This document shows positions 10,233 to 29,474 of a DNA stretch of 41,673 nucleotides, one piece after another (positions within the stretch are counted from its first letter, which is position 1; the number at the start of each line of letters is the position of its first letter). The DNA is from Methylococcaceae bacterium (lineage in GTDB: Bacteria > Pseudomonadota > Gammaproteobacteria > Methylococcales > Methylococcaceae), in contig JAQTSI010000005.1 of the NCBI GenBank assembly GCA_028711365.1, positions 1 through 41,673 of the forward strand. The letters run 5' to 3'. Made by a program: the position numbers and the translations under genes. Below the pieces are notes generated by a model, which saw only the letters and a list, made by a program, of their open reading frames with translations, made no database searches and was not told where the DNA came from.

Positions 10233-10912
10233 ATATCGACCTATCCCTGATCCCCGACACGTTCGACGCCGTGCACGCCGGATTGGCCGCCACCGTGATC
10301 GGTTTACTGTTTTTGCAAATTCTGTTTTTAACCGTCGCTTTCATCGCGGTTTACCGCAAACCGTCCCCCGGAAAAACCCTCCCGGAAGAAATTCCGGCAT
10401 CCGAATCCATCGCGGCGAAACCACTCCCGTCCGCCGCTCAAGCGGCGCGTATCGAAGCGCCGCAACCCGCTTTGGAGCAAGCGCCGGAAAAGTCAGCCCC
10501 GGTGCAGATCAAGACCGTGGTGGTGAAGGAAGCCACGCCGGATGCAGCCCTACAACTGCTGGGTTTGTTGCAGAAGGAAGCCCGCTTCATCGACTTCATC
10601 CAGGAAAACGTCAGCCAATATTCCGACACCGACATCGGCGCGGCGGCCCGCGTGGTGCATGAAGGCTGCCGCAAAGTGCTGCGCCAGCATTTCGAACTGG
10701 CGCCGGTGCGCACCGAGAGCGAAGGCAGCCGCATCACCCTATCCAAAGGCTTCGACGCTTCCCGCATTCGTCTGACCGGCAACATCGTCGGCGAAGCCCC
10801 CTTCACCGGCAACCTGGTGCATCGCGGCTGGAAAGCGACCCAGATCAAGCTCCCCAAGATCACCGAGGGCCATGACGTCAGCATCATCGCTACTGCGGAG
10901 GTGGAATTATGA
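10229..10912 (+). CDS. DUF2760-domain membrane protein
   Basis: 227 aa. One strong membrane helix lies at about residues 18-42. A proline/alanine-rich linker follows, then a conserved C-terminal domain (about 100-227) with LGLLQKEARFIDFIQENV, VHEGCRKVL and GKA-like basic surface before KLPKITEGHDV. This matches the DUF2760 family as I know it; its biochemical role is not known. It is coupled by ATGA overlaps to the lipoprotein upstream and to the Hsp70 downstream. DUF2760 genes commonly sit beside such Hsp70 genes, which suggests a membrane-bound partner or anchor for the chaperone (inference). Confidence 0.88.
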   Translation: MNIDLSLIPDTFDAVHAGLAATVIGLLFLQILFLTVAFIAVYRKPSPGKTLPEEIPASESIAAKPLPSAAQAARIEAPQPALEQAPEKSAPVQIKTVVVKEATPDAALQLLGLLQKEARFIDFIQENVSQYSDTDIGAAARVVHEGCRKVLRQHFELAPVRTESEGSRITLSKGFDASRIRLTGNIVGEAPFTGNLVHRGWKATQIKLPKITEGHDVSIIATAEVEL

Positions 10913-12936
10913 GCGAGTCTCCCCGCTTTTCCGTCGGCATCGACCTGGGCACCACCAACAGCGTCGTCGCCTATCTGGAACTGGAAAAATGCGACGGCGA
11001 ATATGCCCCGCTGGAGGTCCTGGACCTTCCCCAACTCACCGGCCCCGGTTCGGTGGGCGAGAAGAAGCAATTACCCTCCTTCATCTACCAGGCCCATGAG
11101 GCCGAACTGACCCCAGGCGACCTCGCCCTGCCCTGGGACGATCACCCCGAGGCCATCGTCGGTGAGATCGCCCGCCAGCTCGGGGGCAAGACTCCCATCC
11201 GTCTGGTGGCCAGCGCCAAGAGCTGGCTATGCCATAGCGGAGTGGACTGCCGTGCCGCCATCCTGCCGGTGCAATCGCCGGAAGAAGTCGAGCGCATCTC
11301 CCCCTTGCAGGCCTCGATACATTACCTGCGCCACATGCGCGACGCCTGGAACAGCCGTTTCCCCGACGATCCCTTGAGCGAACAGGAACTGGTCATCACC
11401 GTGCCCGCTTCCTTCGACCCGGCGGCCCGCGAACTGACCGTGGAAGCCGCTCATGCCATCGGCTTGCGCCAGGCCATCCTGCTGGAGGAACCGCAGTCCG
11501 CCCTGTATAGCTGGATTCAGACCAGTGCCGGCCAGTGGCGCAACGACGCCAAACCCGGCGACATCATCCTGGTCGTCGACGTGGGCGGCGGCACCGCCGA
11601 CTTATCCCTCATCGCCGTCACCGAGGACGAGGGCAACCTGGTCCTGAACCGCGTCGCCATCGGCGATCACATCCTGCTGGGCGGCGATAACATGGATCTG
11701 GCCCTGGCCTATGTGCTGAAGATGAAACTGGAAAAGGAAAGCAAACGCCTGGAGCCCTGGCAAATCCAGGCCCTCACTCACGGCTGCCGTGACGCCAAGG
11801 AAACCCTGCTGGCCGATCCCGATTCGACCGAGATTCCCGTGGTGGTGCCCAGCCGGGGCTCCTCCCTCATCGGCGGCACCTTGCGCACCGCGCTGACCCG
11901 CGAGGAAGTCGACCGCACCCTGGTGGAAGGCTTCTTCCCGAAAGTCAACATCACCGACCGGCCCGCCACCCAGGCGCGTAGCGGTCTGACCACATTGGGC
12001 CTGCCCTATGCCAAGGACGCACGCATCACCTGCCATCTGGCCGCTTTTCTCGCCAAACAGGTCAACGCCACCTCCGAGTTGCAAGGGTTTGCCTCAAGTC
12101 CCGCCGCGCGCTTCATCCATCCCACCGCCCTGCTCCTCAACGGCGGCGTGTTCAAATCCGAAGCCCTCGCCCATCGTCTGCTGCAAGTGCTCAATCAATG
12201 GCTTTCCGGTGATGGCGCCCCCACCGCTCGCTTGCTGTCCGGCGCCGATCTGGATCTGGCCGTGGCGCGCGGCGCGGCCTATTACGGCTATGTGCGCAAG
12301 GGCAAGGGCGTGCGCATCCGCGGCGGCACGGCGGCTTCCTATTATGTCGGCGTGGAAAGCGCCATGCCGGCGGTGCCGGGCTTCCCGCCCCCGCTGGAAG
12401 CCCTCTGCATCGCCCCCTTCGGCATGGAGGAAGGCACCAGCGCCGAACTGCCCCATGCCGAATTCGGTCTGGTGGTCGGCGAACCGGTCCGCTTCCGCTT
12501 CTTCGGCTCCACCGTCCGCCGCGACGATCCGGTCGGCACCCGGCTGGATTACTGGACCGAGGACGAGTTGGAGGAGCTGGATGAAATCGAGGTCGACCTG
12601 TCGGCGCAAAACCGCCAACCCGGCGAAGTCGTCCCCGTCCATCTCGCCTCCCAGGTCACCGAAGTGGGAGTCCTGCGGCTGGAAGCGGTCGCCACCGACG
12701 ATGGCGAACGCTGGAAAGTGGAATTCGACGTGCGCGCCGGTGAAACCCCAAAATCGGAAGAGCCGGCCAGTTTCGAGGAAATTCCGGAGAATCCGGTGGA
12801 GTTTTTGGAAACGCAAGCCGAAACTGAGGCGGAAGAAATAGAAATGGAAAATCATCAGGAAACAGCGGAATCGAATCAGGAAGATCAAGGCGGCAAAAAG
12901 TCGTTCTGGCCGTTTAGTAAGTCGCCTGGAGCGTAA
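10909..12936 (+). CDS. Hsp70-family chaperone-like ATPase
   Basis: 675 aa. The actin-like nucleotide-binding domain is intact: phosphate-1 motif GIDLGTTNS near residue 10, phosphate-2 motif VVDVGGGTADLS near residue 222, and an adenosine-region LLNGGVF near 408. The C-terminal part differs from DnaK. It lacks a classical lid and EEVD-like tail and ends in an acidic stretch followed by a KSFWPFSKS tail. It starts inside the DUF2760 stop (ATGA). It is not housekeeping DnaK: there is no dnaJ or grpE nearby. It resembles the first member of the paired Hsp70 proteins found with DUF2760 and DUF3731. Confidence 0.93.
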   Translation: MSESPRFSVGIDLGTTNSVVAYLELEKCDGEYAPLEVLDLPQLTGPGSVGEKKQLPSFIYQAHEAELTPGDLALPWDDHPEAIVGEIARQLGGKTPIRLVASAKSWLCHSGVDCRAAILPVQSPEEVERISPLQASIHYLRHMRDAWNSRFPDDPLSEQELVITVPASFDPAARELTVEAAHAIGLRQAILLEEPQSALYSWIQTSAGQWRNDAKPGDIILVVDVGGGTADLSLIAVTEDEGNLVLNRVAIGDHILLGGDNMDLALAYVLKMKLEKESKRLEPWQIQALTHGCRDAKETLLADPDSTEIPVVVPSRGSSLIGGTLRTALTREEVDRTLVEGFFPKVNITDRPATQARSGLTTLGLPYAKDARITCHLAAFLAKQVNATSELQGFASSPAARFIHPTALLLNGGVFKSEALAHRLLQVLNQWLSGDGAPTARLLSGADLDLAVARGAAYYGYVRKGKGVRIRGGTAASYYVGVESAMPAVPGFPPPLEALCIAPFGMEEGTSAELPHAEFGLVVGEPVRFRFFGSTVRRDDPVGTRLDYWTEDELEELDEIEVDLSAQNRQPGEVVPVHLASQVTEVGVLRLEAVATDDGERWKVEFDVRAGETPKSEEPASFEEIPENPVEFLETQAETEAEEIEMENHQETAESNQEDQGGKKSFWPFSKSPGA

Positions 12937-13016
12937 GCAAGCCTTGCACTCCAGGGAAATATCGGGTGGGCAATTTTGCGTCCATCGCATTGACTAGCGA
13001 TTGACACAGGCGCCTG

Positions 13017-13205
13017 GTGAACAGCAACGAATTCAAACGTTGGCTTGCCCAACAAGGCTGCACCTTCGAGACGAAGAAAGCAGGTTCAGGGCATATCATA
13101 GTGCGCTTGGGCGATAGGAAATCCGAAATTCCCATGCACGGCGCAAACAAGGAACTCAAGAAAGGATTGGTGGAAGCCGTGAAAAAACAACTTGGCTTGA
13201 AGTGA
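13017..13205 (+). CDS. hicA: HicA-family mRNA interferase toxin
   Basis: 62 aa, typical HicA size, with the double-stranded RNA-binding-like fold. The family pattern runs FKRWLAQQGC, then SGHIIVRLG with the catalytic histidine in GSGH, then IPMHGANKELKKG. It starts with GTG at 13017 in a poor ribosome-binding context. It is followed after 10 bp by hicB, the standard toxin-antitoxin order. The pair lies between two Hsp70 genes in the same direction, so it may share their transcript or have been inserted later. Confidence 0.92.
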   Translation: MNSNEFKRWLAQQGCTFETKKAGSGHIIVRLGDRKSEIPMHGANKELKKGLVEAVKKQLGLK

Positions 13206-13215
13206 GGCAATAACC

Positions 13216-13641
13216 ATGTGGATTTATCCTGTGTTTTTCGAGCCTGCCGAAGAAGGCGGATTCGTAGTGACATTTCCCGACGTGCCCGAGGCCATCACCG
13301 AAGGCGACGACGAAACCACGGCCTTACTGATGGCCGAGGACGCCCTGATTACCATGCTCGATGCGTACATGGGAGACGGACAGCCGATTCCCGAACCTTC
13401 ACCGCTCAATGGCCACCTCGGCGTCGCCCTCCCCATCCTTGCAGCGGGTAAAGCCGCCTTGCACAACGCCTTACTGGCATCCGGCATGACCAAAGCCGAG
13501 TTGGCTCGCCGCCTAAACCTATCGCTCACCCAAGCCGAGCGATTGTTCTCCCTCCACCATAAAAGCCGTATCGAGCAGATCGAAACCGCTCTGGCGTTGT
13601 TCGGCAAGAGATTGGTGGCCGACGTGAAAGAGGCGGCTTGA
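13216..13641 (+). CDS. hicB: HicB-family antitoxin
   Basis: 141 aa. The N-terminal HicB partial RNase-H-like fold begins MWIYPVFFEP and contains GGFVVTFPDVPEAITEGDD. A C-terminal helix-turn-helix region (about residues 88-125, MTKAELARRLNLSLTQAERL) should bind the operator, giving autorepression typical of the family. It is 10 bp downstream of hicA and should neutralise it. Confidence 0.93.
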   Translation: MWIYPVFFEPAEEGGFVVTFPDVPEAITEGDDETTALLMAEDALITMLDAYMGDGQPIPEPSPLNGHLGVALPILAAGKAALHNALLASGMTKAELARRLNLSLTQAERLFSLHHKSRIEQIETALALFGKRLVADVKEAA

Positions 13642-13739
13642 AGACATGAGGAGATAAGGATACGGTCAAAAATACTATATTGATAACTACCTAATAAATG
13701 CCGTCAAGTCCGGCTTCAAAGCTATGTTTGGAAGTGAGC

Positions 13740-13979
13740 ATGAGAAACTGCATGACTGAATATCAAGTCGAAGCCTTTTGGGATCATGGGGCGCAGGTAT
13801 GGGTGGCAAGCAGCGAAGATGTGCCTGGGCTTGCCACCGAAGCCGAAACCGTGGAAGCCTTGGTGGACAAGTTGCGAACCGTCATACCTGAATTGCTTGA
13901 GTTATCCGGCGTTACGCCCGGCGCAGACATTCCTTTCCGGATGCACGGGAGCGAATCAATAAAATTCATGCAAACCTAA
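13740..13979 (+). CDS. DUF1902-domain small protein (HicB-like fold)
   Basis: 79 aa from the ATG at 13740, which has GGAAGTGAG just upstream; an ATG at 13752 is an alternative. The pattern WVASSEDVPGLATEAETVE followed by LVDKLRTVIPELLELSG is typical of DUF1902, related to the N-terminal HicB fold but without a DNA-binding domain. The preceding 100 bp are markedly more AT-rich than the flanks. No separate toxin gene accompanies it beyond hicA. It could be an orphan antitoxin-like protein or an accessory of the HicAB module; function unknown. Confidence 0.82.
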   Translation: MRNCMTEYQVEAFWDHGAQVWVASSEDVPGLATEAETVEALVDKLRTVIPELLELSGVTPGADIPFRMHGSESIKFMQT

Positions 13980-13991
13980 CCACTCCAACTC

Positions 13992-16769
13992 ATGCCCCAT
14001 TCGCATCCGTCCCGTTACCTCGTCGGCATCGACCTGGGCACCACGCATACCGTGGTCGCCTATGCCGATACGGCCGGGGGCGCAAACCTGAAAATCGAGG
14101 TTTTCCCCATCGAGCAGTTGATCGCTCCCGGCGAGATCGCCGCCCGTCCCCTGCTGCCTTCGGTGCGTTATCATCCGGCGCCGGGAGAGATGGTGGAGTT
14201 GGACAGCCGTCTGCCTTGGAGCGAGACCCAGGACGATACCCGCCCCATCATCGGCGAACTGGCCAGGCTGCTGGGTTCCAAGAGCCATGGGCGAGCCATC
14301 GTCAGCGCCAAGAGTTGGCTGTCCCACGGGGGCGTGGACCGCACCGCGCCGACCCTGCCCTGGGGAGGGGCCGAAGGCGTAGGTAAAATCTCCCCCCTGG
14401 AAGCCAGCGCCTCTTATCTCGAGCATGTGCGTCGCGCCTGGAATCGGCATTTCCCTGAGCACCCTTTGGAAAACCAGGAAATCGTCGTCACCGTGCCGGC
14501 CTCCTTCGACGAGGCCGCCCGCTCGCTGACCTTGGAGGCGGCAAGGCAGGCCGGCTTATGCGACATACGCCTGGTCGAAGAACCCCAGGCGGCCTGTTAC
14601 GACTGGGTATGGCGTCACCGCAAGACCCTGGCCAAGCAACTGGCCGGAGTGCGCCTGTTGCTGGTGGTGGACGTGGGCGGAGGCACCACCGACCTGACCC
14701 TCATCCAGGTCGAAACCGGCGAGGAAGAACCCAAGCTGACTCGGATCGGGGTGGGCGATCATCTGATGCTGGGCGGAGACAACCTGGATTTGACCCTGGC
14801 CCATATCGTCGAACACCGCCTGGTGCGCGACCGCCGGCTGAGCGCGGCCGAGCTTTCCCAGGTGGTGGAGCAATGCCGCATCGCCAAGGAAAGCCTGCTG
14901 GGTGAGGATGCGCCCGCCGCCGCCTCCATCACCCTGCTGGGGTCCGGCTCGAAACTGATAGGCGGAACCCGCTTCACCGAACTGAGCCAGGAGAAGGTCC
15001 GCCAGGTGGTGCTGGACGGGTTCTTTCCGTTGACCGGGCTGGATGAATTGCCGGTACGCAAACGCGGCAGCGCCGTGGTGGAATATGGCCTGCCCTATGC
15101 CCAAGACCCCGCCATCGGCAAACAGGTAGCGGCCTTCCTCGCCCAGCATCGGCAGATCATGCAGGAAACCCTGGGTGAGGGGATGCAGCCCATGCCCGAC
15201 GCCGTGCTGCTCAATGGGGGATTGTTCAGCAGTCCCATCATCGTGCGCCGACTACTGGAACTGCTGAATTCCTGGCGCAGCGGCCCCCCTCTCAAGCATT
15301 TGCGCAATGATCGGCCCGACCAGGCCGTGGCCCATGGCGCGGTGGCTTATGGCCTGGCCCGGCGCGGCTTGTCGGTTCGGAAAATCGGTGGCGGTTCGGC
15401 CCGCGCCTATTTCCTGGTGGTGGACACGGATCATGAAGAAACTCAACACGGCGTCTGCCTGCTGCCGCGCGGCACCGACGAAGGCCACGAGGTTTTCCTG
15501 GCCGAGCGCAGTTTCGCCCTGCGTTTTGGTCAGCCGGTACGCTTCCATCTGGTTTCTTCCGTCGCCGACACCCGCTGGCAACCCGGGGATCTGACCGAAA
15601 TCGACCCGGAGCATTTCGTCCAGTTGCCCCCCCTGGCGGTGGCATTCGACCGCGACCAAGGCCGCAACGAGGTGGTCGTGAGATTGGCCGCCACCCTCAC
15701 CGAAGTGGGCACTTTGAAAATCCAGTGCGTGGATGCCGAAAACCCCGAACGGCGCTGGAACGTGGAATTCCAACTCCGCCAGACACGCACCGCACCATTG
15801 CAAACCCCGACTAGCGGGCTGCATCCCAGGGCCGGCGAGGCGGTGGAGCTGATCCGGATGGTCTTCGGCAAAAAGACCCGCATCGTCGACCCCAAGCGCA
15901 TCAAGGGTTTGCGAGCCGAATTAGAGAAACTGCTGGGCAAGCGCGAAGACTGGGACACGGCCTTGCTGCGCGAATTATTCGGCGCGCTGCTGGAAGGACT
16001 ACCCCATCGCCGCCGCTCCGATGCCCACGAACGTTCCTGGCTCAGTCTCACCGGCTACTGTCTGCGTCCCGGCTTCGGCTATCCACTGGATGATTGGCGG
16101 GTGGAACAAATCTGGGCGCTCTATGATCAGGGCATCCAGTATCACATGGAGACCCAGAACTGGGCGGAATGGTGGACGCTATGGCGGCGCATCGCTGGCG
16201 GATTGAACGCGCAGGCCCAAGCCAAGATCTTCGCCGTACTGGCCGACTTCATCCATCCCGAAAAGGCCAAGCGCGGCAATCTGCCCGCCCAGTCCAAGAA
16301 ACGCAGTTACGAGGACATGCTGCGCCTGGCCGCCGTGCTGGAACGCCTGCCGCTGGCCGACAAGACGGCGCTGGGCGACTGGCTGCTGCAGCGGTTGGGC
16401 AAACCCGGGGAGCCGGCGCAAACCGGGTGGGCTTTGGGCCGGATCGGCGCCCGCATCCCTTTCCACGGCGGCATCGAGGGCGTGGTGCCTCCCGAAACCG
16501 CCGAAACCTGGCTGTCCGTCCTGCTCGAATTCGACTGGAAAAAGGCTCCCTTCGCAGGCTTCGCCGCCACCCTGATCAGCCGCATGACCGGCGACCGCGC
16601 CCGCGACATCAATCCCGGCCTGCGTGAGCAAGTCGTAGAAAAGCTGCGCACCGCCAAATCCCCGGAAACCTGGTTGCTTATGGTGACGGAAATCAAGGAA
16701 TTGGATGAAGCGGACGAGCAGAGGATATTCGGCGAGGCCCTGCCGCCGGGCTTGAAGCTGATCGGCTGA
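13992..16769 (+). CDS. Hsp70-family protein with DUF3731-like C-terminal extension
   Basis: 925 aa, far longer than DnaK. The nucleotide-binding half keeps GIDLGTTHT near residue 11, VTVPASFDEAARSLTLEAAR near 168 and VVDVGGGTTDLT near 222. From about residue 594 a long helical region rich in tryptophan follows (DWRVEQIWALYDQG, WAEWWTLWRRIAGG), matching the DUF3731 extension known from such Hsp70s. It shares its N-terminal layout with the 675-aa Hsp70 upstream, suggesting the two arose by duplication and act together. It starts 12 bp after the DUF1902 gene. Client proteins are unknown. Confidence 0.93.
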   Translation: MPHSHPSRYLVGIDLGTTHTVVAYADTAGGANLKIEVFPIEQLIAPGEIAARPLLPSVRYHPAPGEMVELDSRLPWSETQDDTRPIIGELARLLGSKSHGRAIVSAKSWLSHGGVDRTAPTLPWGGAEGVGKISPLEASASYLEHVRRAWNRHFPEHPLENQEIVVTVPASFDEAARSLTLEAARQAGLCDIRLVEEPQAACYDWVWRHRKTLAKQLAGVRLLLVVDVGGGTTDLTLIQVETGEEEPKLTRIGVGDHLMLGGDNLDLTLAHIVEHRLVRDRRLSAAELSQVVEQCRIAKESLLGEDAPAAASITLLGSGSKLIGGTRFTELSQEKVRQVVLDGFFPLTGLDELPVRKRGSAVVEYGLPYAQDPAIGKQVAAFLAQHRQIMQETLGEGMQPMPDAVLLNGGLFSSPIIVRRLLELLNSWRSGPPLKHLRNDRPDQAVAHGAVAYGLARRGLSVRKIGGGSARAYFLVVDTDHEETQHGVCLLPRGTDEGHEVFLAERSFALRFGQPVRFHLVSSVADTRWQPGDLTEIDPEHFVQLPPLAVAFDRDQGRNEVVVRLAATLTEVGTLKIQCVDAENPERRWNVEFQLRQTRTAPLQTPTSGLHPRAGEAVELIRMVFGKKTRIVDPKRIKGLRAELEKLLGKREDWDTALLRELFGALLEGLPHRRRSDAHERSWLSLTGYCLRPGFGYPLDDWRVEQIWALYDQGIQYHMETQNWAEWWTLWRRIAGGLNAQAQAKIFAVLADFIHPEKAKRGNLPAQSKKRSYEDMLRLAAVLERLPLADKTALGDWLLQRLGKPGEPAQTGWALGRIGARIPFHGGIEGVVPPETAETWLSVLLEFDWKKAPFAGFAATLISRMTGDRARDINPGLREQVVEKLRTAKSPETWLLMVTEIKELDEADEQRIFGEALPPGLKLIG

Positions 16770-18398: not shown

Positions 18399-18695
18399 TC
18401 AAGAACGATCGTGAAACCTTGAAAGGGCAATATCGTAGATTTCATTTCGATCGCGTTTGCCAACGGCAATCACCGTCACTGTAATGGTCTTGTCTTGAAC
18501 GGAGTAGACCAGGCGATAGCCGAGCTGGCGCAGTTTGATTTTGTATAGGTTGGGTGTCCCAGAAAGAGCAGCGGATGGTATATGGGGATTTTCCAATCTT
18601 TCTTTCAATTTTTTCTTGAATTGATTTTTGAGGGTGTGCCCAAGTTTTTCCCATTCTTTCAGAGCGGATTTTTTGAATTCCAGTTTATAGGTCAT
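18399..18695 (-). CDS. RelE/ParE-family toxin
   Basis: 98 aa from the ATG at 18695. The fold pattern is that of RelE: MTYKLEFKKSALKEWEKL, then helices with LKNQFKKKLKERLENP, then YKIKLRQLGYRLVYSVQD and VTVIAVGKRDRNEIY near the end. RelE proteins cleave mRNA on the ribosome. Its start overlaps the antitoxin stop by 11 bp, the standard antitoxin-toxin order. Conserved basic residues and the C-terminal region (GKRDRNEIY) look intact, so it is probably functional. Confidence 0.92.
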   Translation of the reverse strand: MTYKLEFKKSALKEWEKLGHTLKNQFKKKLKERLENPHIPSAALSGTPNLYKIKLRQLGYRLVYSVQDKTITVTVIAVGKRDRNEIYDIALSRFHDRS

Positions 18696-18933
18696 CGATT
18701 GAAATCCCGATCGACTCCTCATCCTGGCGTTCTTTTACGAGTTTGAGTAATTCGATATCGTCCAGCAACTCCATCATCGCCTCATAGGTAGCGGCTGGCA
18801 CGCAATAAAAGGCAGGTTCATTTCTGTTCAAAACGGCAATGGGCATTCCGTTTCCGCTGGACACGACTTTCATGGGGTTGGCTTTCAACTCGGAAATGCT
18901 GGCGGCAATTTCAGTAAGCACTTGATGTGTCAT
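18685..18933 (-). CDS. Phd/YefM-type antitoxin
   Basis: 82 aa from the ATG at 18933; a TTG at 18945 could extend it by four residues. The N-terminal part (ISELKANPMKVVSSGNGMPIAVLNR, split here as a DNA-binding Phd/YefM domain) is followed by FYCVPAATYEAMMELLDD and an acidic C-terminus that should wrap the toxin. It precedes and overlaps the RelE-type toxin gene and probably autoregulates the pair. Confidence 0.9.
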   Translation of the reverse strand: MTHQVLTEIAASISELKANPMKVVSSGNGMPIAVLNRNEPAFYCVPAATYEAMMELLDDIELLKLVKERQDEESIGISIDDL

Positions 18934-18945
18934 GGTTTTACTCAA

Positions 18946-20611: not shown

Positions 20612-21054
20612 GAGGCATATCCGGTTCGCCAGCCGATCAACTGCAGGTTTTCCGCACCATGGCTCACCGAGACGGTGATTTTCTTCGCCGAGCTTACCCC
20701 AGCCAGCGTTCCCGGCACCACCGACACCGCCACGGAATAGCCGCCCAAGACCACGGTCCCATCGATGTCACAGATGGAACTCGAACTGTAACCGTTGTAG
20801 TCGTCGATGTCGTTGTAGGTATTGCGGGCACAGCCGCTCGCCGGCGCGGACGCGATGGGCGTGTAGGATTTCAGGGTGATTTCCTCCATCATCTCCTCGG
20901 CAATCGCCAGCATCTGTTTGTGGATCAGCGGATCGCTGCTACTCTTCACCGCCGTCGTAAAAGCCATCAGCACACCCGCCAAGCCGACACCGATGATGAC
21001 GATGGCCATCACCAGTTCGATCAGCGTCATGCCGGCTTGATGCTCACTCGACAT
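20608..21054 (-). CDS. mshD: MSHA pilus minor pilin MshD
   Basis: 148 aa. The class III signal EHQAG precedes MTLIELVMAIVIIGVGLAG; Glu+5 is present and +1 is methionine instead of phenylalanine, which prepilin peptidases accept. The following LAIAEEMMEEI helix is typical of PilV/MshD. It overlaps mshC by 11 bp and mshO by 4 bp. Confidence 0.92.
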   Translation of the reverse strand: MSSEHQAGMTLIELVMAIVIIGVGLAGVLMAFTTAVKSSSDPLIHKQMLAIAEEMMEEITLKSYTPIASAPASGCARNTYNDIDDYNGYSSSSICDIDGTVVLGGYSVAVSVVPGTLAGVSSAKKITVSVSHGAENLQLIGWRTGYAS

Positions 21055-21505
21055 AGCCGGTCTCCCCGCCCACTAGGATCGCCGGCTGCCCCGTCACCGT
21101 CAAAGAGAAGTTGCCAATGCTGTTGCCGGCGCCATCGGATGTCGCCATGCCGATGGGCTGGAAATAAATGACGCCGGTCGGAGACAGGGTAATATTCGCC
21201 GAATCGGGGTTCTGGGCGAAATCGCTGCTGCCATCCGGGCCGTTGAGCGGCGAGGTGCAGGCTGTGGCCGGATTGCCGGCGGCTATGCTCAGGCTCACGC
21301 TGTCTGTGGCGATAGTCGCACAAACCAGCCTGCGGTGGCTAACGGCGCTCTTTTGGGCAAAACGCAGCGCAGCCACCACCTCGTCATGGAAAGCCAGAGA
21401 GCGAAACGCACCGCTATCGTTGAAACGCGGTAGGGCGACCACCGCGAGTATCCCCAGAATCACGATCACCGACACCAATTCGATCACGGTGAAACCGGAC
21501 TGCAT
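21044..21505 (-). CDS. mshC: MSHA pilus minor pilin MshC
   Basis: 153 aa from the ATG at 21505, chosen because the prepilin leader MQSG and mature FTVIELVSVIVILGILAV begin here; the longer open frame upstream only reads through repeats. The body (FHDEVVAALRFAQKSAVSHR) is that of GspH/FimT-like pilins. A pair of cysteines is present. It has AAGG shortly upstream of the ATG. It follows a repeat-filled gap that separates it from mshQ. Confidence 0.92.
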   Translation of the reverse strand: MQSGFTVIELVSVIVILGILAVVALPRFNDSGAFRSLAFHDEVVAALRFAQKSAVSHRRLVCATIATDSVSLSIAAGNPATACTSPLNGPDGSSDFAQNPDSANITLSPTGVIYFQPIGMATSDGAGNSIGNFSLTVTGQPAILVGGETGYVE

Positions 21506-21542
21506 TTGCCTTTTTGAAGTCTCCTTCTTCAGAAAAAGCACC

Positions 21543-21657
21543 GTCGTTCCGGCCCTTCGTCCCTGCTCAGGACGGGCAGGGATCGCCGGAACCCAGCTTG
21601 CTGGGACGTGACTTTGTAATTCATCCCGAACGTCGTCTGGGTTCCGGCTTCCTTGCT
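21543..21657. repeat. Dispersed intergenic repeat with inverted ends
   Basis: GCCGGAACCCAG at 21585-21596 is repeated inverted as CTGGGTTCCGGC at 21637-21648, and the flanks carry the tract CCTGCTCAGGACGGGCAGG and later TGTCCTGAGCATT. The same TGTCCTGAGCATT word occurs in the repeat inside mshN near 33766. There is no coding evidence. Confidence 0.55.
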
Positions 21658-21708
21658 TGTCCTGAGCATTAGTACCTACACAAGTTTGAAAGTACGGAAA
21701 ACAAACCC

Positions 21709-21839
21709 CTTCCCCCTTGCAGGGGGAAGGCTGGGATGGGGGTAGAAGCGTGCAGAACCCCAGAAGCGGCGCCGCATGATCGGCGTTCAACCCCCACCCT
21801 AACCCTCCCCCTGCCAGGGGGAGGGGACTTGTGTAGATC
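21709..21839 (+). repeat. 131 bp two-hairpin composite repeat, copy 1
   Basis: It starts with a 10 bp stem hairpin (21709-21718 with 21722-21731), passes through a palindromic middle containing GCGGCGCCGC and GATCGGCGTT, then a second 10 bp stem (21804-21813 with 21817-21826), and ends ACTTGTGTAGAT (21828-21839). Its reverse complement recurs at 29237-29367 with the same length and, by hand alignment, about eight differences. It lies between mshQ and mshC. Confidence 0.8.
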
Positions 21840-21888
21840 CCCCTGTTGTCCTGAGCCAAGTCGAAGGGCCGGAATGACGGCCTGGCGT

Positions 21889-24561
21889 TCATTGAAATAA
21901 CTCGCGTACATGAATCTGCTTGGCCGTCTCGGGCGCATAGACGCCGAAGCTCGCCCTGGCCGAAGGATCACGGTCATAGGTGCTGGCGCAGGAGCCGTTT
22001 TGCGCACGCAGCCAAGCTTGATTGGAAGCCGTTCCGCCATGAGATGCCAGGCAGGACTGATCGGAACCGCTGGTTCCGAGGTTGGCCGCCACATCCACGC
22101 TGCCCGTGCTGCCGGCTGGCGAAGGCGCGGCAAAGACGATGTTCCCTTGGCCTGCGGACAGGGTCAGCCCGGTTGGGCTGGTACTCCAGCCGCTGCCCGA
22201 ATAACTGAGCGCCAGGGAAGAAGCGGGAATCTGGGTACAGTTGTCGTCGGCGTTGATCACCCAAGACTTTTCGCTCCAGTACTGCGCCTGCACCGGCACG
22301 GAAAGGCTGGATTTTTCCGAACCGAAGGCATTGAACAGCCGTAGGCGACCGCGGCGGACCATCGTCCAGGCACTGGTTTCGTGCTCGCTCGAAGTCACGC
22401 CTCCATTGACCGAATCTGCCGCATGCAATTGGATCTTCGTCGGCAAAGTCGGCGGGCCGCTGTCATGGGTGGCGAACAGGTAGGACACCGGGCTGGCCGC
22501 AATCGCCATAACCGCGCCGATACCAGCCGCGAAAACACTGGCGGGAATGGTTGGATTGACCAGACTGCCGACGCCGCCGGCCAAAATTTCGCTCAAGTTC
22601 ACATCATGGGCCTGATTCGGGGAAGTATCGGCCGAACCGTCGTAATTCAGCGTCGTTCCCCCCCCGTAGCGGTTGGCCGTGGCCTGCACCAGAAAAGGCT
22701 GGCCTGAATAAGCGAAAGATCCGCAAGTCGGCGTCATCACCAGGTCGAAATAAGCCGGAACGAAGGGGCCGATGCCCGTCAGAGAGCCGCTCGCCGTGAA
22801 CCCGGAGCCCAGGTAACTTCCGCTGCTTAAAGCTACGCTTAGATCGATCGTGCCGACCTCGCTCCAAGTGGGGTTGTTCACCGGCGCGGTGCCGCTGGCA
22901 AAGGAACCTACCGTGCCGGTAAAGACCCCATCGTTTGCCCCCGAACCCGTAGGCTGGTTTTTGGCGAAGCTTAAAGCGGCCCCTTCGCTTGGGGATTCCA
23001 GGCCAAAATTGGGTGTGGCTACACCGGCGCTATTTTTCGCGGTGATGCTGGCGTTGTAATCCTGCCCCGCCACATAAGGTCCGCCGGTGGTAATGCCGAA
23101 ACTGGCCGGCGCCGCGACAAATGAATCGCTGCCTGTCATCACCAAGCCGGCTTCGCTGCCCGAGCTAGGCGCATAGCGGGCATTGAGCAGCATCGATCCC
23201 GCATCGGCGTATTGCACCGAGGTGCTGGCTTCCCCGCTGGCGTTGAAATTGAGGCTGACGGCATTGCCGGATGCATCGCACGCGCCGCCCAGGTTGTTGC
23301 CCGCGTTGAGCGCCGTGCCCCCGACTCGCACCGGCAGGGTTCCTGATGCGGGGTTCTGGTAGCCGCAGGTGAAGGTGACCGTCTTGCTCACATTGGCGAA
23401 GGCCGGTGTGCAAGCCAGACCCGCGCTCACCGTGACCGTTTGGGCCACTTCGGAGACATGGCTGGGCACATCGAACACAAAGCCCGCATCGGTCGCCGTA
23501 AAGCTGCAACTGCTCGAGCCGCCGAAATCGCAGGTGGCGGCATAGCCAGGGCTCGGAGTCGCCGAGGCGATACCGAAAGTCACCGGAGAATTGGCCGTGG
23601 TCACTTGCACTGTTTTGGCCACTGAACTGCTCAGCGCGGGGATAGTAAAAGCCGGGCTGCCTCCCTCCCAGTTGACGGTCGCAGTGCCGGCAGCGCTCAG
23701 ATTGCCGCTGACGCCGCCCAAATAGGGCACAGCGCAGGCGGTATCCTGGCAGGCGGTGATGGTCAGTGTCGTCGGCGCGCAGGTCACTCCGGTGGAACTG
23801 GCGGCCGAGATGTGGAGATGGTGAAGAAAAGGGATCTGCGGCCTCAGGGCCAATAACTGGCCGACGTTGTGCGCTGACGAAGCGCCGGTTGCCACCTTAT
23901 CGCCAGAAGCACCGATGGTCGGCTTGATGACATAGGCCATCGAAACAGACACCCCACTATTCCCCCCACCGCTATTCACATCGTAGGATTCGCTCATGCC
24001 GTTCGGCGGGGTGAAGAAGGAACTTGCCGCGTCTGCCGAGCCAAAAAAGCCCACCAGCATGTCGTTTTCCGTTGCCGTCGTGACGGACGGTGCCGTGACC
24101 AACTTGGAGGGGAAAAGGAGACTGGTTGCATGCCCCGAATGATCCTCGATAGGCGATGAAGTATCCACCCCTCTATAAATGGAAATACCGCCGGCAGCAT
24201 AATTTATTCCTAATCCCAGAAAAGGACCCCAGGTTTGGTCACTTCCTATATCGCCTGACGCGGCCACTTTCGCATATACCGCCTGCACTATGGCGAGGCC
24301 AAGAAGGCTCGGCTGACACTCAATTAAACTCCAGCCAGAAGGAATGGGATAGGTAAGAGCGCTACAAAGAAGGCTCAGGCCTCCAAAAGTCACCTGCGCC
24401 ACCATCAAATCGCCGACGTGGGTAGAAGAATCGACATGCAGTTGAAGGTAACTCCATGCGCCACCCGTCGTGTTGGCGGCGATGAAGCTAATATCTGCGG
24501 TCGCCAGTGTCGGCAGCAGCATCAACCCGCAGAAAAACTTGGCCAGTTTCCGAATTTGCAA
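21889..24561 (-). CDS. mshQ: MSHA biogenesis protein MshQ (DUF6701-like)
   Basis: Large exported beta-rich protein, 890 aa from the TTG at 24561. That start gives a good signal peptide (KLAKFFCGLMLLPTLATA) and has AGGA a few bases upstream. An ATG at 24675 would extend the frame by 38 residues, but these are encoded by a dispersed inverted repeat and carry no signal. The body shows Cys-pair repeats, a pentraxin/LamG-like N-terminal part and the C-terminal region RRGRLRLFNAFGSEKSSLSV typical of DUF6701/MshQ proteins. It is probably a surface or tip component of the MSHA pilus. Here it precedes mshC instead of closing the operon. Confidence 0.85.
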   Translation of the reverse strand: MQIRKLAKFFCGLMLLPTLATADISFIAANTTGGAWSYLQLHVDSSTHVGDLMVAQVTFGGLSLLCSALTYPIPSGWSLIECQPSLLGLAIVQAVYAKVAASGDIGSDQTWGPFLGLGINYAAGGISIYRGVDTSSPIEDHSGHATSLLFPSKLVTAPSVTTATENDMLVGFFGSADAASSFFTPPNGMSESYDVNSGGGNSGVSVSMAYVIKPTIGASGDKVATGASSAHNVGQLLALRPQIPFLHHLHISAASSTGVTCAPTTLTITACQDTACAVPYLGGVSGNLSAAGTATVNWEGGSPAFTIPALSSSVAKTVQVTTANSPVTFGIASATPSPGYAATCDFGGSSSCSFTATDAGFVFDVPSHVSEVAQTVTVSAGLACTPAFANVSKTVTFTCGYQNPASGTLPVRVGGTALNAGNNLGGACDASGNAVSLNFNASGEASTSVQYADAGSMLLNARYAPSSGSEAGLVMTGSDSFVAAPASFGITTGGPYVAGQDYNASITAKNSAGVATPNFGLESPSEGAALSFAKNQPTGSGANDGVFTGTVGSFASGTAPVNNPTWSEVGTIDLSVALSSGSYLGSGFTASGSLTGIGPFVPAYFDLVMTPTCGSFAYSGQPFLVQATANRYGGGTTLNYDGSADTSPNQAHDVNLSEILAGGVGSLVNPTIPASVFAAGIGAVMAIAASPVSYLFATHDSGPPTLPTKIQLHAADSVNGGVTSSEHETSAWTMVRRGRLRLFNAFGSEKSSLSVPVQAQYWSEKSWVINADDNCTQIPASSLALSYSGSGWSTSPTGLTLSAGQGNIVFAAPSPAGSTGSVDVAANLGTSGSDQSCLASHGGTASNQAWLRAQNGSCASTYDRDPSARASFGVYAPETAKQIHVRELFQ

Positions 24562-24587
24562 GTATTCCTGCGAAACTTCTTTGAGTT

Positions 24588-24641
24588 CCGTTCGGGCTGA
24601 GCCTGTCGAAGCCCGCCCTTCGACAGGCTCAGGGCGAACGG
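24588..24641. repeat. Long inverted repeat at the 5' end of mshQ
   Basis: CCGTTCGGGCTGAGCCTGTC begins an arm at 24588-24611 that pairs with 24618-24641 over 24 bp with two mismatches and a 6-base loop. The core CCTGAGCCTGTCGAAG is a very widespread bacterial intergenic repeat. It sits between the glycosyltransferase stop and the likely mshQ start, so it could act on mRNA stability or attenuation. Confidence 0.75.
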
Positions 24642-24687
24642 TGGTTAAAATTGGTTTCCATGATTTACTTATCATTGCCTTGGCCTG

Positions 24688-26895
24688 TTATTCCGTCAGT
24701 TTTTCTCCGCGTTGCCAAGCCAGCCACATCTTGCGGTACAGGCTTTCCAGGTCGCGGGTAAACTGCTCGGGCCGTCGAAGCGGGCTGTTGTCCATGCGTG
24801 GCCGCAATTCCTTACGCAAGTTGCCGAGCCGGCGGCCATCGCCCGCCAACTCGACAGCCCCCCGAATATAAGACGCGACATCTGGAAAAACCAGATCGGT
24901 CAGTCCCATGTTTTCCAGGGCGGAAAGCGTCTGCCTGGAAACCACGCCGCCGCCTGCCACCGTGACGACTGGAACCCCCATCCAAAGCGCTTCAAGAGTC
25001 GTCATGCCGCCGTTGAACGGAAAAGGGTCTAGGGCGATGTCGACCTCGCCATATTCTTGCAACATCTCCCTGTGGGGAGAGGGGCCGCGCAATTCCAGGC
25101 GCGTTTCATCCAATCCGCAGGCAACAAAGCGGCGGCGCAAGTCGTCACATACGCCCTGATTCTTAAGCGGCCCCGATTTCAGCAATAACCGACTGTTTGG
25201 AACCGCCTGAATAATTTCCGTCCACGCGGCGATGACGGGGTCGACCAGTTTTTCGATGCGATTGAACGATCCAAAAGTGATCCGCCCTTGGGTTGCTATA
25301 GGCGGCGGCGCAACCTCGGGCGCGTAATCCGGGGGCGAATAGCAAAATCGAGAATGCGGCAGGCGCACGGGTATTTCGGAAAACAACTGGCCGCAGCCCA
25401 AGGGCGTGGTGTAAGGGTCGGTGATGAAATAATCGATGCTTTTCAGCCCGGTCGAATGAAAATAACCGATCCATGTGGCTTGCACCGGCACCGGCCTGCG
25501 CACAAACACCGGCAAGCGGTTGTAGGCCGTATGGCCCGAGAGATCGACCAGGATATCGATGCGATCACGATAAATTTGTTCCGCCAGCTCCTCGTCACAC
25601 ATAAACAATGCGTCGGTCCACATATCGGCGCTTTCGCGAATGGCATTGGTAATGTCGTCACTTGAGCGCATCATCGAATAGCAATGGATGTAGTACTGTC
25701 GATGGTCGTGGCAGCGCACGATGTCTTTCAATAAGAAACCGACCGGATGAGTGCCGAAGTCTCCCGATACATAGCCTATCCTTAAAGGTTCATCGGTTTG
25801 CCGGCGTGGGTCATGAGAGAAAGCCTGTTGTCCATCCACTGTTTCAAAATGATCGGCCCATTCTTGGTGATAGCCGAACAGCGCCTCGGAGGAAAGTTCC
25901 GGCAGATAGGTGGCGTCGAAAGCAATGCTCGAGCGGATGCCCGGCATTTGCGGGTTCTCCGCCAAGGCTCTTTGATGGAGGCGTATCGCTCCTCGATGGT
26001 CGGCGCGGGTGCTCAAACAACTCGCCAAGGTAATGAGGGCGGAGACATTGTTGGCTTGCATCTCCAAGACTTTATCGCAAGTCGCCTCGGCAGCATGCCA
26101 GTCGCATTGAGCCCGCTGCGCCAGCGCGAGCGATGCGAGGCGCTGGGCATTTTCGCCTTTGACGGCGATCTCATCTTGAAAGAACGCCAGGGCTTCAGCG
26201 AGGCGATGGGATTCGCCCAGCAAGGTGGCCAAGCCGATCTGGGCGCCGGGGCAAGTGGGATCACACTCTAGGGATTTGCGAAAGGACTCGACGGCGAGGC
26301 GGGACTTGCCGGTATGTAGCAGCACATTGCCCAAATTGACATGCAGCGCGGCCTGGTTCGGATACAGTTCTATCGCCTTCCGCGCCGCCGTTTCGGCATC
26401 GTCAAACCGCGCCAACTCGTAGAGCGCGGCGACAGAGTTGTTCAAGGCTTCGAGTAAATGCGGATCGAGCCTGAGCGCTTGCTCGAACTGGGCCAGCGCG
26501 GTCGAATAATCACCCTTGACCAGCCACCATTCTCCCAGGTTGCTCCACGCCTGCGCGTAATCCGGCGCTAGCGAGACAGCCTTTTCATAGGCGTCTTTCG
26601 CGGCCTCCATCTGGGCGAGCCGCCGCCTAGCCGCGCCCAACGCGCACCAGGCTTTCGCGTGTTTTGGATCGCGGATAATTGCTTGCTCGCAGGCTTTTAC
26701 CGCTTCGAGGTTTTGATTTTTGGCGAGTAGCTGCTGGCTAAGCAGGAAGCTGGCTTCCGCGGCTGTCTTCCCGTCTCCGGCCGCGCCGTTCCGGTAACAG
26801 GTTTCAGCCAAAGACGCCATCCCCTTGTTTGCCAGCCAACGCCCCTGGGCAATCCAAAACGAACCGACAAGCCAATCAACGGGTTTAATCTTCAT
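24688..26895 (-). CDS. TPR-containing GT41 (O-GlcNAc transferase-like) glycosyltransferase
   Basis: 735 aa from the ATG at 26895; a GTG at 26910 is an alternative. About seven TPR repeats cover residues 30-330 (for example AWCALGAARRRLAQMEAAKD and AWSNLGEWWLVKGDYSTALA). The catalytic part begins RIGYVSGDFGTHPVGF and includes DILVDLSGHTAYNRLPVF, ITFGSFNRIEKL and the sugar-nucleotide region DPFPFNGGMTTLEALWMGVP. This is the SPINDLY/OGT architecture of GT41, which moves a sugar from UDP-GlcNAc or a related donor to Ser/Thr of proteins. Its place inside the pilus cluster suggests pilin or MshQ glycosylation; that is inference. Confidence 0.92.
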   Translation of the reverse strand: MKIKPVDWLVGSFWIAQGRWLANKGMASLAETCYRNGAAGDGKTAAEASFLLSQQLLAKNQNLEAVKACEQAIIRDPKHAKAWCALGAARRRLAQMEAAKDAYEKAVSLAPDYAQAWSNLGEWWLVKGDYSTALAQFEQALRLDPHLLEALNNSVAALYELARFDDAETAARKAIELYPNQAALHVNLGNVLLHTGKSRLAVESFRKSLECDPTCPGAQIGLATLLGESHRLAEALAFFQDEIAVKGENAQRLASLALAQRAQCDWHAAEATCDKVLEMQANNVSALITLASCLSTRADHRGAIRLHQRALAENPQMPGIRSSIAFDATYLPELSSEALFGYHQEWADHFETVDGQQAFSHDPRRQTDEPLRIGYVSGDFGTHPVGFLLKDIVRCHDHRQYYIHCYSMMRSSDDITNAIRESADMWTDALFMCDEELAEQIYRDRIDILVDLSGHTAYNRLPVFVRRPVPVQATWIGYFHSTGLKSIDYFITDPYTTPLGCGQLFSEIPVRLPHSRFCYSPPDYAPEVAPPPIATQGRITFGSFNRIEKLVDPVIAAWTEIIQAVPNSRLLLKSGPLKNQGVCDDLRRRFVACGLDETRLELRGPSPHREMLQEYGEVDIALDPFPFNGGMTTLEALWMGVPVVTVAGGGVVSRQTLSALENMGLTDLVFPDVASYIRGAVELAGDGRRLGNLRKELRPRMDNSPLRRPEQFTRDLESLYRKMWLAWQRGEKLTE

Positions 26896-26902
26896 CAAGG
26901 CA

Positions 26903-27031
26903 CTTGCCACCTATCAATTTGCCGGAGCGGGCCATGCCCGCGACGAATCCGGCTGCGGATGAGGGATCGGTCGCGCCCATGGGGCGCTCCTACATACTTT
27001 TCGCCAATATTCAAATGTGACAGGTGGCAAG
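26903..27031. repeat. Inverted REP-like doublet between glycosyltransferase and methyltransferase genes
   Basis: Two small GC hairpins face each other: GCGGGC/GCCCGC (26927-26932 with 26936-26941) and GCGCCC/GGGCGC (26973-26978 with 26982-26987), within GGAGCGGGCCATGCCCGCGA and the matching GGTCGCGCCCATGGGGCGCT. They are enclosed by imperfect 19-20 bp inverted repeats, CTTGCCACCTATCAATTTG (26903-26921) and its counterpart at 27012-27031. This is the layout of REP/BIME elements. Confidence 0.7.
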
Positions 27032-27032
27032 A

Positions 27033-27746
27033 TCAAGGCAAATGGATATCCGCAAGCGCCTGCATTTCCTGCTCGCTTCTATGCGTTTTGGACGCGACTA
27101 TCCACAGATCGAAGCTGGTTTCCCGCCGTTTTCCGGCGACGGATGGAAATCCAGCCGCGCGGACGGCATCAACCAAGGTGCGTAGCGTGAATCCGGTGTG
27201 GTGCGCCATAAACAGGTTTCCTTGAGCCAATTGCGGCCTATGTCCATAGAGAATATCCAAAGGCGCAATGGGGCCTGCGGGCGAGATATAGAGGGCTTGG
27301 TCCAACCGGCCTTCAGCAATAAAATGGCCTAGGGATTGCAAGTCGGGGCAGGCCAAGACCAATAAACCCTCAGGCTTAAGCACCCGCAAAAATTCCGCCA
27401 AGGCCACCGGCACTTCGTGTGGATAAAGATGTTCGATGTTATGGCTGGAATAGACTCCATCGACCGAAGCCGGCGGCACAGACCGCATATCCAGCATATT
27501 CGAGACGATATCCGGCAATACCGCAGGATCGATGTCTAGCCGCAGTTCGCGCCATTCGTCAGAGAGGAAACCCGGCCCTACATTCGGCTTGCGCGCCGGG
27601 CCACAACCCACATGCAGGAATTTCTGTCCGGGGCCGGTAAATAATTCGGCGGCAGCGGTGTTGTTCCCTGGCTTGGCAATGCTCAGTCCATGCCTAGCCA
27701 TCCACGAAGACAAGGTGCGCCATAGGGCAGTTGTCAATGGTTTCAT
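27033..27746 (-). CDS. Class I SAM-dependent methyltransferase
   Basis: 237 aa. The SAM-binding motif I is FLHVGCGPARKPNVG; it is followed by RLDIDPAVLPDIVSNMLD and by SSHNIEHLYPHEVPVALAEF and LKPEGLLVLACPDLQSLG, the usual order of a Rossmann methyltransferase. The closest type I recognise is the one that modifies sugars or glycan precursors, but the substrate is not readable. It is directly upstream, in transcription order, of the GT41 glycosyltransferase, so it may methylate the glycan or a pilus protein. Confidence 0.88.
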   Translation of the reverse strand: MKPLTTALWRTLSSWMARHGLSIAKPGNNTAAAELFTGPGQKFLHVGCGPARKPNVGPGFLSDEWRELRLDIDPAVLPDIVSNMLDMRSVPPASVDGVYSSHNIEHLYPHEVPVALAEFLRVLKPEGLLVLACPDLQSLGHFIAEGRLDQALYISPAGPIAPLDILYGHRPQLAQGNLFMAHHTGFTLRTLVDAVRAAGFPSVAGKRRETSFDLWIVASKTHRSEQEMQALADIHLP

Positions 27747-27766
27747 GGTTGGGCACAGTGGATGGA

Positions 27767-28087
27767 TTAACGCGGATCGCCTACAAAAGCCGACATTAGC
27801 AGTGCGAAAAGGACTTGCTTGACGAGTTGGGACGGGTAGCCTGCCGCCAACAGGCGTTGCTGCAAGCCGAAAGCCACCCGCGCCCGCCCAATGACGCCAA
27901 GTCTATGGCGTTGCCTCTCGATGCGCGCCGTTTCGTAGAATTTCTGCAACGCGGCTTCGCTGGCCGATTGAATATCCTGGCCGGAAATGTTTTTTCCGTG
28001 TTTGGATGGCTGTAGCGGAAGGACTCGCTTGAACTCTACGCAAAGCCGTTCGCTGACATCGTTGATTCGCGCAGGCGCTTTTTCCAT
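27767..28087 (-). CDS. Small protein of unknown function in the pilus cluster
   Basis: 106 aa, basic, with cysteine only at position 17. The C-terminal half (RIERQRHRLGVIGRARVAFG and LAAGYPSQLVKQVLFALLMS) looks like amphipathic helices and contains no known catalytic motif. There is no signal peptide and no clear ribosome site. It lies between the mshA-like pilin and the methyltransferase genes, in the same direction with short gaps, which supports it being real. I do not recognise the family. Confidence 0.7.
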   Translation of the reverse strand: MEKAPARINDVSERLCVEFKRVLPLQPSKHGKNISGQDIQSASEAALQKFYETARIERQRHRLGVIGRARVAFGLQQRLLAAGYPSQLVKQVLFALLMSAFVGDPR

Positions 28088-28152
28088 TGTTTTATCTGTT
28101 CAAAGGCGAGACGCATCGGAGTCAAGTCCGATACGCCTCGTATGGAGGAAGG

Positions 28153-28542
28153 TTAACCTGTGCAAATCAGCGTGGCACTGGCGGTGGCGGCCGTGCTATA
28201 TACCGAGATAGCGGAAGCATCACCGGCGGCTGAACACGTTACACCTCCGCTAGCACTATAACCGGAAGGTAGGGCTCCTCCTGCCATAATACTGCCGACA
28301 ACCACGCTGACAGTTACCGTGCCAGAAACGGCAACGCCCTTGGTGGGATTCGCCATACGAGCCCCATAATTGGTCACAAAAGCCGAACTGACAGCACCTG
28401 CAACTCCATAGGCAGCCGCAAGCTCTGCGTCAGACTTCAGATCTATATATCTTGGCACCGCTACTGCGGCCAAGATGCCTAGGATGACGATGACGATGAC
28501 CAATTCGATCAGGGTAAAACCCATTTGTTGTTTAGCGTTCAT
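28153..28542 (-). CDS. mshA: MSHA-type major pilin candidate
   Basis: 129-aa type IVa prepilin. The leader MNAKQQMG is cut before FTLIELVIVIVILGILAAVA, with Glu+5 present. Two cysteines in the mature protein (CSAAGDASAISVYSTAATAS... to LIC) bracket a short C-terminal disulfide region. The mature chain is rich in Ser, Thr and Ala, which could offer O-glycosylation sites. Its position after the mshB-like gene fits mshA in the usual F-B-A order; which of the two pilins is the major subunit cannot be settled from sequence alone. Confidence 0.88.
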   Translation of the reverse strand: MNAKQQMGFTLIELVIVIVILGILAAVAVPRYIDLKSDAELAAAYGVAGAVSSAFVTNYGARMANPTKGVAVSGTVTVSVVVGSIMAGGALPSGYSASGGVTCSAAGDASAISVYSTAATASATLICTG

Positions 28543-28591: not shown

Positions 28592-29071
28592 TTATTGGCA
28601 GGTGCTCAACGTGGCGTTGATGGCATAAATCGGTTGTTGATTTGCCTGCGCTTCAGTATAGACGATGGTGCAGGCGGGGTTGCCTCCTGCGCCATCATGG
28701 TTGGCGTCCGGCGCGAAAATCTGTATTCCGCCAAATGGGCTAGGAACGGTATAGTCGGGGGGCGCGATTCCGGCAAGTTCAGCAATCTGGGCGGCGGTGG
28801 GATAACCATTGACGAAGCCCACGGTCGTGCCTTCGACCACGATGGTGCTGGAGCCTACGGGAAGAGTCTGGCTGGGGCTGAAACCACGGGCGATCAATTG
28901 GGCATGCGCCATGACAGCGGCGGCCTTGACCGAGGCGAGCGCGCCGTTCATCTTGGCCAGGCGGGCATCCCCTTGCAGGGAGAAGAATTTGGGCAAGGCC
29001 ACGGCGGCCAGAATCCCTAGAATGGTGATCACGATCACCAACTCGATCAGAGTAAAGCCCTTTCGATTCAT
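28592..29071 (-). CDS. mshB: MSHA-type pilin, MshB/MshA-like
   Basis: 159 aa from the ATG at 29071, chosen because the prepilin leader MNRKG and mature FTLIELVIVITILGILAAVA begin there. The body LQGDARLAKMNGALASVKAA and the two C-terminal cysteines (PACTIV, LSTC) fit MSHA pilins. It is longer than the downstream pilin and overlaps the mshB position next to mshF. It might equally be the true major subunit MshA. Confidence 0.88.
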   Translation of the reverse strand: MNRKGFTLIELVIVITILGILAAVALPKFFSLQGDARLAKMNGALASVKAAAVMAHAQLIARGFSPSQTLPVGSSTIVVEGTTVGFVNGYPTAAQIAELAGIAPPDYTVPSPFGGIQIFAPDANHDGAGGNPACTIVYTEAQANQQPIYAINATLSTCQ

Positions 29072-29194: not shown

Positions 29195-29474
29195 GGTTCT
29201 ACCCCCATCCCATCCTTCCCCCTGCAAGGCATAGGTATCTACACAAATCCCCTCCCCCTGGCAGGGGGAGGGTTAGGGTGGGGGTTGAACGCCGATCATG
29301 CGGCGCCGCTTCTGGGTTTCGGCAAGCTTCTACCACAATCCCACCCTTCCCCCTGCAATGGGGAAGGAGTTGATTTCCTTACACTTCATGCCTTGACAGG
29401 AAGTTTTTAGCCCCTTACAGAAGACCATTAGGGAAGGAGTTGATTTTTCTGTCTTATCAGACTTGTGTAGATAC
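29195..29474 (-). repeat. Composite repeat copy 2 with flanking fragments (mshF-mshB gap)
   Basis: The 430 bp gap between mshF and mshB holds no gene but several repeat pieces: a truncated hairpin fragment at 29195-29230, a full 131 bp copy at 29237-29367 inverted relative to that at 21709-21839, and a short piece at 29431-29472 ending ACTTGTGTAGAT that matches 19183-19226. The full copy carries stems at 29250-29259 with 29263-29272, and at 29345-29352 with 29360-29367. A promoter for the pilin genes may lie in 29072-29190. Confidence 0.75.

Follow-up and report, generated by a model that had tools for sequence, protein, structure and literature searches.

A TPR-GT41 glycosyltransferase module linked to an MshA-type pilin in the MSHA cluster of a Methylococcaceae bacterium: a candidate system for cytoplasmic pilin glycosylation

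We analysed the first 41,673 nt of contig JAQTSI010000005.1 of a Methylococcaceae bacterium (assembly GCA_028711365.1), hereafter called the window, which carries a mannose-sensitive haemagglutinin (MSHA) pilus cluster with three genes of interest between its pilin genes and mshQ. All the genes considered here are on the minus strand. The three are GT (24688..26910; 740 aa, GTG start), encoding a family GT41 glycosyltransferase with tetratricopeptide repeats (TPRs) and a candidate pilin O-glycosyltransferase; MT (27033..27746; 237 aa), encoding an S-adenosylmethionine-dependent methyltransferase, a candidate for methylating the transferred sugar; and p106 (27767..28087; 106 aa), encoding a predicted helical cytoplasmic protein, which we used as the marker of the module and which is a candidate adaptor or prepilin-holding factor. 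The candidate acceptor is the product of pilA (28153..28542), an MshA-type prepilin with an N_methyl motif and a Ser/Thr/Ala-rich, charge-poor head. A second MSHA pilin gene, pilB (28592..29071), is native to the host cluster; its true start is at about position 29071, the longest open reading frame (ORF) carrying a spurious N-terminal extension. On the other side of GT is mshQ (21889..24675; DUF6701, PF20419 at 292 bits). The order is mshI-J/K-L-M-N-E-G-F-pilB-pilA-[p106-MT-GT]-Q-C-D-O-P, so that mshE, G, L, M, N, the pilins, mshC, D, O and Q are found together, in synteny with a relative of the same family (locus L155, genome G021) and with other msh clusters. A preliminary description of this DNA had reported three ORFs between the pilins and mshQ, and this is borne out: all three are on the minus strand at the coordinates given above, inside a full msh cluster.

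GT matches the Pfam model Glyco_transf_41 (PF13844) with 171 bits against a cut-off of 25, and its N-terminal TPR array covers approximately residues 50-330 (TPR_1 95 bits, TPR_2 88 bits, and others), which is the architecture of the OGT/SPINDLY type. Among solved structures, its best relatives are plant SPINDLY (7y4i) and TtOGT of Thermobaculum (5djs); human OGT and XcOGT come next. The active-site lysine is retained: K554 is aligned to residue 341 of 5djs, where that entry has Met, and to a Lys in SPINDLY. We take 5djs to be the K341M mutant of TtOGT, which the aligned position fits. The motifs GDFGxHP, LSGHTAYNRL, FNRxEK and FPFNGGMTT are retained across the four aligned GTs, and an N-terminal conserved stretch specific to the family ends in LAETCYRNG. 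No transmembrane segment was predicted in GT (top 19-residue hydropathy 1.58), and GT is probably cytoplasmic. It had no match to Wzy_C in the profile search, hence it is not a PglL/TfpO-like O-oligosaccharyltransferase; nor is it of the HMW1C type, since it scores 27 bits against the N-glycosyltransferase model NF049992 (cut-off 1000) and TPRs are present. GT is the only GT41 protein that we found in the window genome.

We searched for p106 in 369 genomes of the class, and scanned 84,980 species genomes by alignment for relatives of GT. p106 was found in 4 of the 369 genomes (window genome included), where an orthologous GT and a pilin were always adjacent, and among 311 genomes of the window's own order in no other; the larger scan gave seven close relatives of GT. 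Merged, the two surveys yield nine distinct loci, all of which have both p106 and GT: the window, L072 (= L057; UBA6920), L073 (Noviherbaspirillum autotrophicum), L074 (a Nitrosomonadales metagenome-assembled genome, MAG), L075 (Propionivibrio dicarboxylicus), L076 (an Oxalobacteraceae MAG), L077 and L059 (= L078) ('Thiotrichales' MAGs), and L058 (genome G153). The module is therefore spread over Oxalobacteraceae, Rhodocyclaceae, Nitrosomonadales, 'Thiotrichales' MAGs and others, and the GT orthologues of the eight other loci are 58-71% identical to that of the window. A pilin of the same lineage directly precedes p106 in eight loci, and MT, present in seven, is placed either before or after GT. 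Seven loci lie within msh clusters. The other two lie amid unrelated genes: L058 in the order pilA-p106-(220-aa ORF)-MT-GT, and L059 with an mshF-like gene and four pilins alongside p106 and GT; mshC, D, O and Q were not found near either. The survey of other msh clusters for the same insert, which the preliminary description had proposed as a check, thus showed that the module recurs.

We rejected as members of the module the GT41 genes beside PilA-type pilins in two genomes of the window's family (G014, G015), because they have 32-35% identity, are convergent and lack p106. At L070 (9493-11990) and L063 (16605-19135), in genus g8 of that family, a TPR-GT41 gene with 32-35% identity to GT is convergent to a PilA-type pilin, and additional TPR-GT-like genes are found upstream; this may be another, separate association of a pilin with GT41. 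Giant ORFs of about 1800 aa, each with two GT41 domains and an MT-like domain, were seen at L071 (~9955-15183) and in G019 (C1:151527-155735).

In the pilin tree, the 12 pilins of the module group in a single clade (89/80; found in 88% of bootstrap trees). Compared with the head of the window pilA, theirs show 44-57% identity, whereas those of 15 other MSHA pilins, two of which come from the window's family, reach 19-33%. The window head has 25% Ser/Thr and 5% charged residues; for the module-linked heads the values are 26% and 4.6%, and for 51 comparator prepilins 17% and 16.6% (Mann-Whitney p 7e-6 for Ser/Thr and 3e-7 for charge, not corrected for ancestry). The AlphaFold model of the pilin, with a predicted local distance difference test (pLDDT) score of 60, was too poor for placing Ser/Thr sites. 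The suggestion that the pilin is the acceptor is well supported by this comparison, the same lineage accompanying p106 and GT at eight of the nine loci, whether or not these lie in an msh cluster, and apparently being exchanged together with them.

Evidence for exchange comes from L155. Its msh cluster is syntenic with that of the window (identities of 76% for mshE, 69% for mshM, 67% for pilB, 65% for mshG, 57% for mshL and 50% for mshQ), and its pilA is followed directly by mshC, without p106, MT or GT. The two pilA products are 48% identical over 121 residues (80 bits) and have mainly the N-terminal part in common, the heads being 33% identical, while window pilA reaches 128-137 bits with the pilins of the distant module clusters L073-L076. 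For pilB the pattern is the opposite, with 67% identity to L155 and 33-45% to the module clusters. Because a syntenic relative lacks the insert and has a different pilin head, pilA and the enzymes look like one exchanged cassette, and the claim that the genes are inserted is supported. The comparison shows that these genes belong together, that the pilin lineage goes with them and that the rest of the cluster differs in history. The simplest reading is that pilA, p106, MT and GT entered a resident msh cluster together; alternatively, they may have been shared earlier and lost in relatives. Frequent hopping of the module alone between clusters was considered and is not shown, as the MshG tree allows one origin (p-AU, approximately unbiased test, 0.46).

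MT matches Methyltransf_11 with 35 bits (cut-off 21), a generic model, and no more specific family. Its counterparts in six other module loci are 52-61% identical, and near its relatives within the window's family (G017, G018) none of the msh or pilin genes used as queries was found. In UBA6920, GT and MT are fused in one 958-aa ORF, which is followed by a homologue of the macrocin O-methyltransferase TylF (312 bits). p106 had no match to Pfam or NCBIfam models. It is 40-67% identical across the nine loci, always near GT, and the alignment of the nine sequences has 14 invariant columns, including RAR, LQ and GY. Its structure model has four to five helices (pLDDT 74). A fold could not be assigned: the best Foldseek E-value was 0.36, with no convincing match in the PDB, and the best VIA-align Z values, 8.4 with a designed repeat protein and 7.5 with the C-terminal domain of KaiA, are in the chance range for helical bundles.

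As a comparator set we took 23 msh clusters in which mshG and mshC are present. In eight of them, a Wzy_C-domain (O-antigen ligase) protein of 625-696 aa, in some cases with TPRs, adjoins a pilin, either between the pilin and mshC (L117, L123, L127, L129, L130, L143, L144) or before the pilins (L122); L144 has two such Wzy_C/TPR proteins, and L145 has a membrane-TPR protein at the same site. None of the module loci has a Wzy_C gene. Since Wzy_C genes occur in 8 of the 23 clusters, the place beside the MSHA pilin appears to be often filled by genes for glycosylation, GT-p106-MT being an alternative filling.

Known systems resemble the module in part. According to the excerpted text of a 2025 review, pilin-specific transferases are typically encoded adjacent to their pilin, and for type IV pilin glycosylation that text names only oligosaccharyltransferases, which are periplasmic (PMC12645811). 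TfpO, TfpM, PglS and PglL are like the module in that the pilin-specific members adjoin their pilin, but unlike GT they are multi-membrane and periplasmic and use lipid-linked donors. In V. cholerae, pglL is upstream of the msh operon, and the authors speculate on glycosylation of an MSHA component without showing it (PMC6901666); here too a glycosylation gene is beside msh, but PglL is a general O-oligosaccharyltransferase, of a different enzyme class. FlmG of Caulobacter (PMC7591256), likened to GT by description, is a soluble TPR and GT-B glycosyltransferase dedicated to the subunit of an extracellular filament, recognises its substrate via the N-terminal domain and modifies it before export; its acceptor is however flagellin, with type III export, its donor is pseudaminic acid, and no p106 or MT is reported. 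HMW1C and ApHMW1C (PMC3012730) are cytoplasmic GT41 enzymes accessory to a surface adhesin that is modified before secretion, but have no TPR and glycosylate Asn. TtOGT (5djs), human OGT and SPINDLY have TPRs, the same catalytic domain and the conserved position of the active-site lysine; OGT and SPINDLY, unlike what we propose for GT, act on intracellular proteins. In the open-licence literature we found no report linking SPINDLY with pili or MSHA with an O-oligosaccharyltransferase.

The reading that we favour, with a probability of roughly 0.65, is that pilA-p106-MT-GT (24688-28542, minus strand) is a self-contained cassette in which the predicted cytoplasmic GT41 enzyme would glycosylate the co-encoded pilin, MT would O-methylate the sugar and p106 would hold or present the prepilin. 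We infer the catalysis, the acceptor, the compartment, the order of the steps, the target of methylation and the role of p106. The TPR groove of GT would bind the pilin head, or p106 bound to the head, and the GT domain would move a sugar from a nucleotide donor onto Ser/Thr of the charge-poor head. This would take place before or during the crossing of the inner membrane by the prepilin; MT would then methylate the transferred sugar, and the modified pilin would be processed and assembled. Modification before translocation is suggested because GT is cytoplasmic as judged from its sequence, and HMW1C, acting on a secreted adhesin (PMC3012730), and FlmG, acting on flagellin (PMC7591256), offer possible precedents. 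The acceptor is likely the co-encoded pilin and not MshQ. MT most likely O-methylates the sugar on the pilin, and p106 is most likely a small helical helper, holding the prepilin or offering it to GT; its consistent position, behind the pilin and ahead of GT, suggests a role in joining the two. A fuller version, in which GT41 modifies the prepilin while its head is still on the cytoplasmic side of the inner membrane, p106 is a new prepilin-holding or targeting factor, MT caps the glycan and the cassette spreads between MSHA clusters, is more tentative, and we put it at somewhat less than even odds.

Several points weigh against the favoured reading. As pilin heads normally end in the periplasm, a cytoplasmic enzyme has to modify them ahead of translocation, and in the open-licence literature we found no case of a cytoplasmic enzyme modifying a type IV pilin at that stage. 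At L077, p106-GT adjoins mshF with no pilA between them, MT is absent from two of the nine loci, and low-charge heads are also found in pilins of L136 and L141, which have no module. In the MshG tree, which does not resolve the window, five of the six module clusters fall into a single clade, and the statistics of linkage and composition are affected by shared ancestry.

The alternative that survives best concerns MT only and is compatible with the cassette: GT would act on the pilin, and MT would methylate a protein (pilin, GT or p106) and not the sugar. That MT has only a generic family assignment and is absent from two loci is in its favour, but the GT-MT fusion and the TylF-type neighbour of UBA6920 fit sugar methylation better, and we consider it unlikely. 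Of the methylated sugar proposed in the preliminary description we therefore keep the plausibility, given MT in seven of nine loci, the fusion and the TylF neighbour, with the reservation that MT could methylate something else.

Less probable still is a regulatory O-glycosylation, as by eukaryotic OGT/SPINDLY, of a cytoplasmic factor of pilus biogenesis or of p106 itself, with no glycan on the pilus. GT41 enzymes of this type do act on cytosolic proteins, and p106, predicted to be soluble and helical, always accompanies GT; such a role would however not account for the common lineage of the pilins, for their exchange together with the enzymes or for the Ser/Thr-rich, uncharged heads.

MshQ, a large Sec-secreted protein, had also been proposed as the acceptor, GT then acting as HMW1C does on the HMW1 adhesin and the linkage with pilins being incidental. 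Besides that precedent of a cytoplasmic GT41 enzyme (PMC3012730), mshQ directly follows GT in the window, and all four p106-bearing genomes of the class are MshQ-positive, against 81 of the 369 overall (an association beyond chance, Fisher p = 0.002, a figure affected by shared ancestry); in the window's family, 4 of 38 genomes have MshQ. But mshQ is apart from GT in L072, L073, L075 and L076, and is at a different position also in L155, while the modules of L058 and L059 have pilins and no mshQ nearby. Moreover, the window mshQ is closest to that of the insert-free L155 (50%, 556 bits, versus 25-41% for others), which argues that mshQ did not travel with GT. MshQ as acceptor is thus disfavoured, and we regard it as improbable. 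That unrelated genes landed in the msh cluster as chance neighbours or relics, conceivable given the many dispersed repeats of this genome and the two that flank the region, is already contradicted by the recurrence of the same gene set in several orders at nine loci with intact conserved motifs, and is scarcely credible.

If the cassette reading is true, the system would be a new variant of pilin glycosylation, as the known pilin systems, at least in the excerpted review text, use periplasmic transferases (PMC12645811). Some prepilins would remain within reach in the cytoplasm for as long as their modification requires, the p106 family would gain a role in cytoplasmic prepilin modification, and glycosylation of MSHA pili, so far speculation in the papers found, would receive direct support. 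Pili serve as adhesins and phage receptors; if a pilin and its sugar travel as a single cassette, surface identity could therefore be changed in this way.

The surroundings of the module deserve some further remarks. The pilB-pilA-p106-MT-GT-mshQ stretch is flanked by a dispersed repeat of which about 70 pieces occur genome-wide: one copy is at 29230..29376 and a second, inverted one at 21692..21841, between mshQ and mshC (92% identity over 143 nt with 21699-21841). The two inverted copies are a conceivable route by which mshQ may have been rearranged or the segment exchanged; in principle the segment could also invert. The longest ORFs of mshQ (21889-24675) and mshC (21044-21892) open within repeat sequence, and their true starts are probably further in; precisely, the prepilin motif of mshC begins at about 21514, and from its translation MshQ has a likely signal peptide about 50 codons into the called ORF, near 24520, so that the gap between GT and mshQ is nearer 165 bp than 12 bp. 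The gap between MT and GT (26911-27032) holds a palindromic sequence resembling repetitive extragenic palindromes (GTAGGAGCGCCCCATGGGCGCGACC ... GTCGCGGGCATGGCCCGCTCC), in a single copy within the window. Beside the msh cluster (18399-18945, minus strand), two small ORFs resemble by eye a RelE/ParE-type toxin and its antitoxin.

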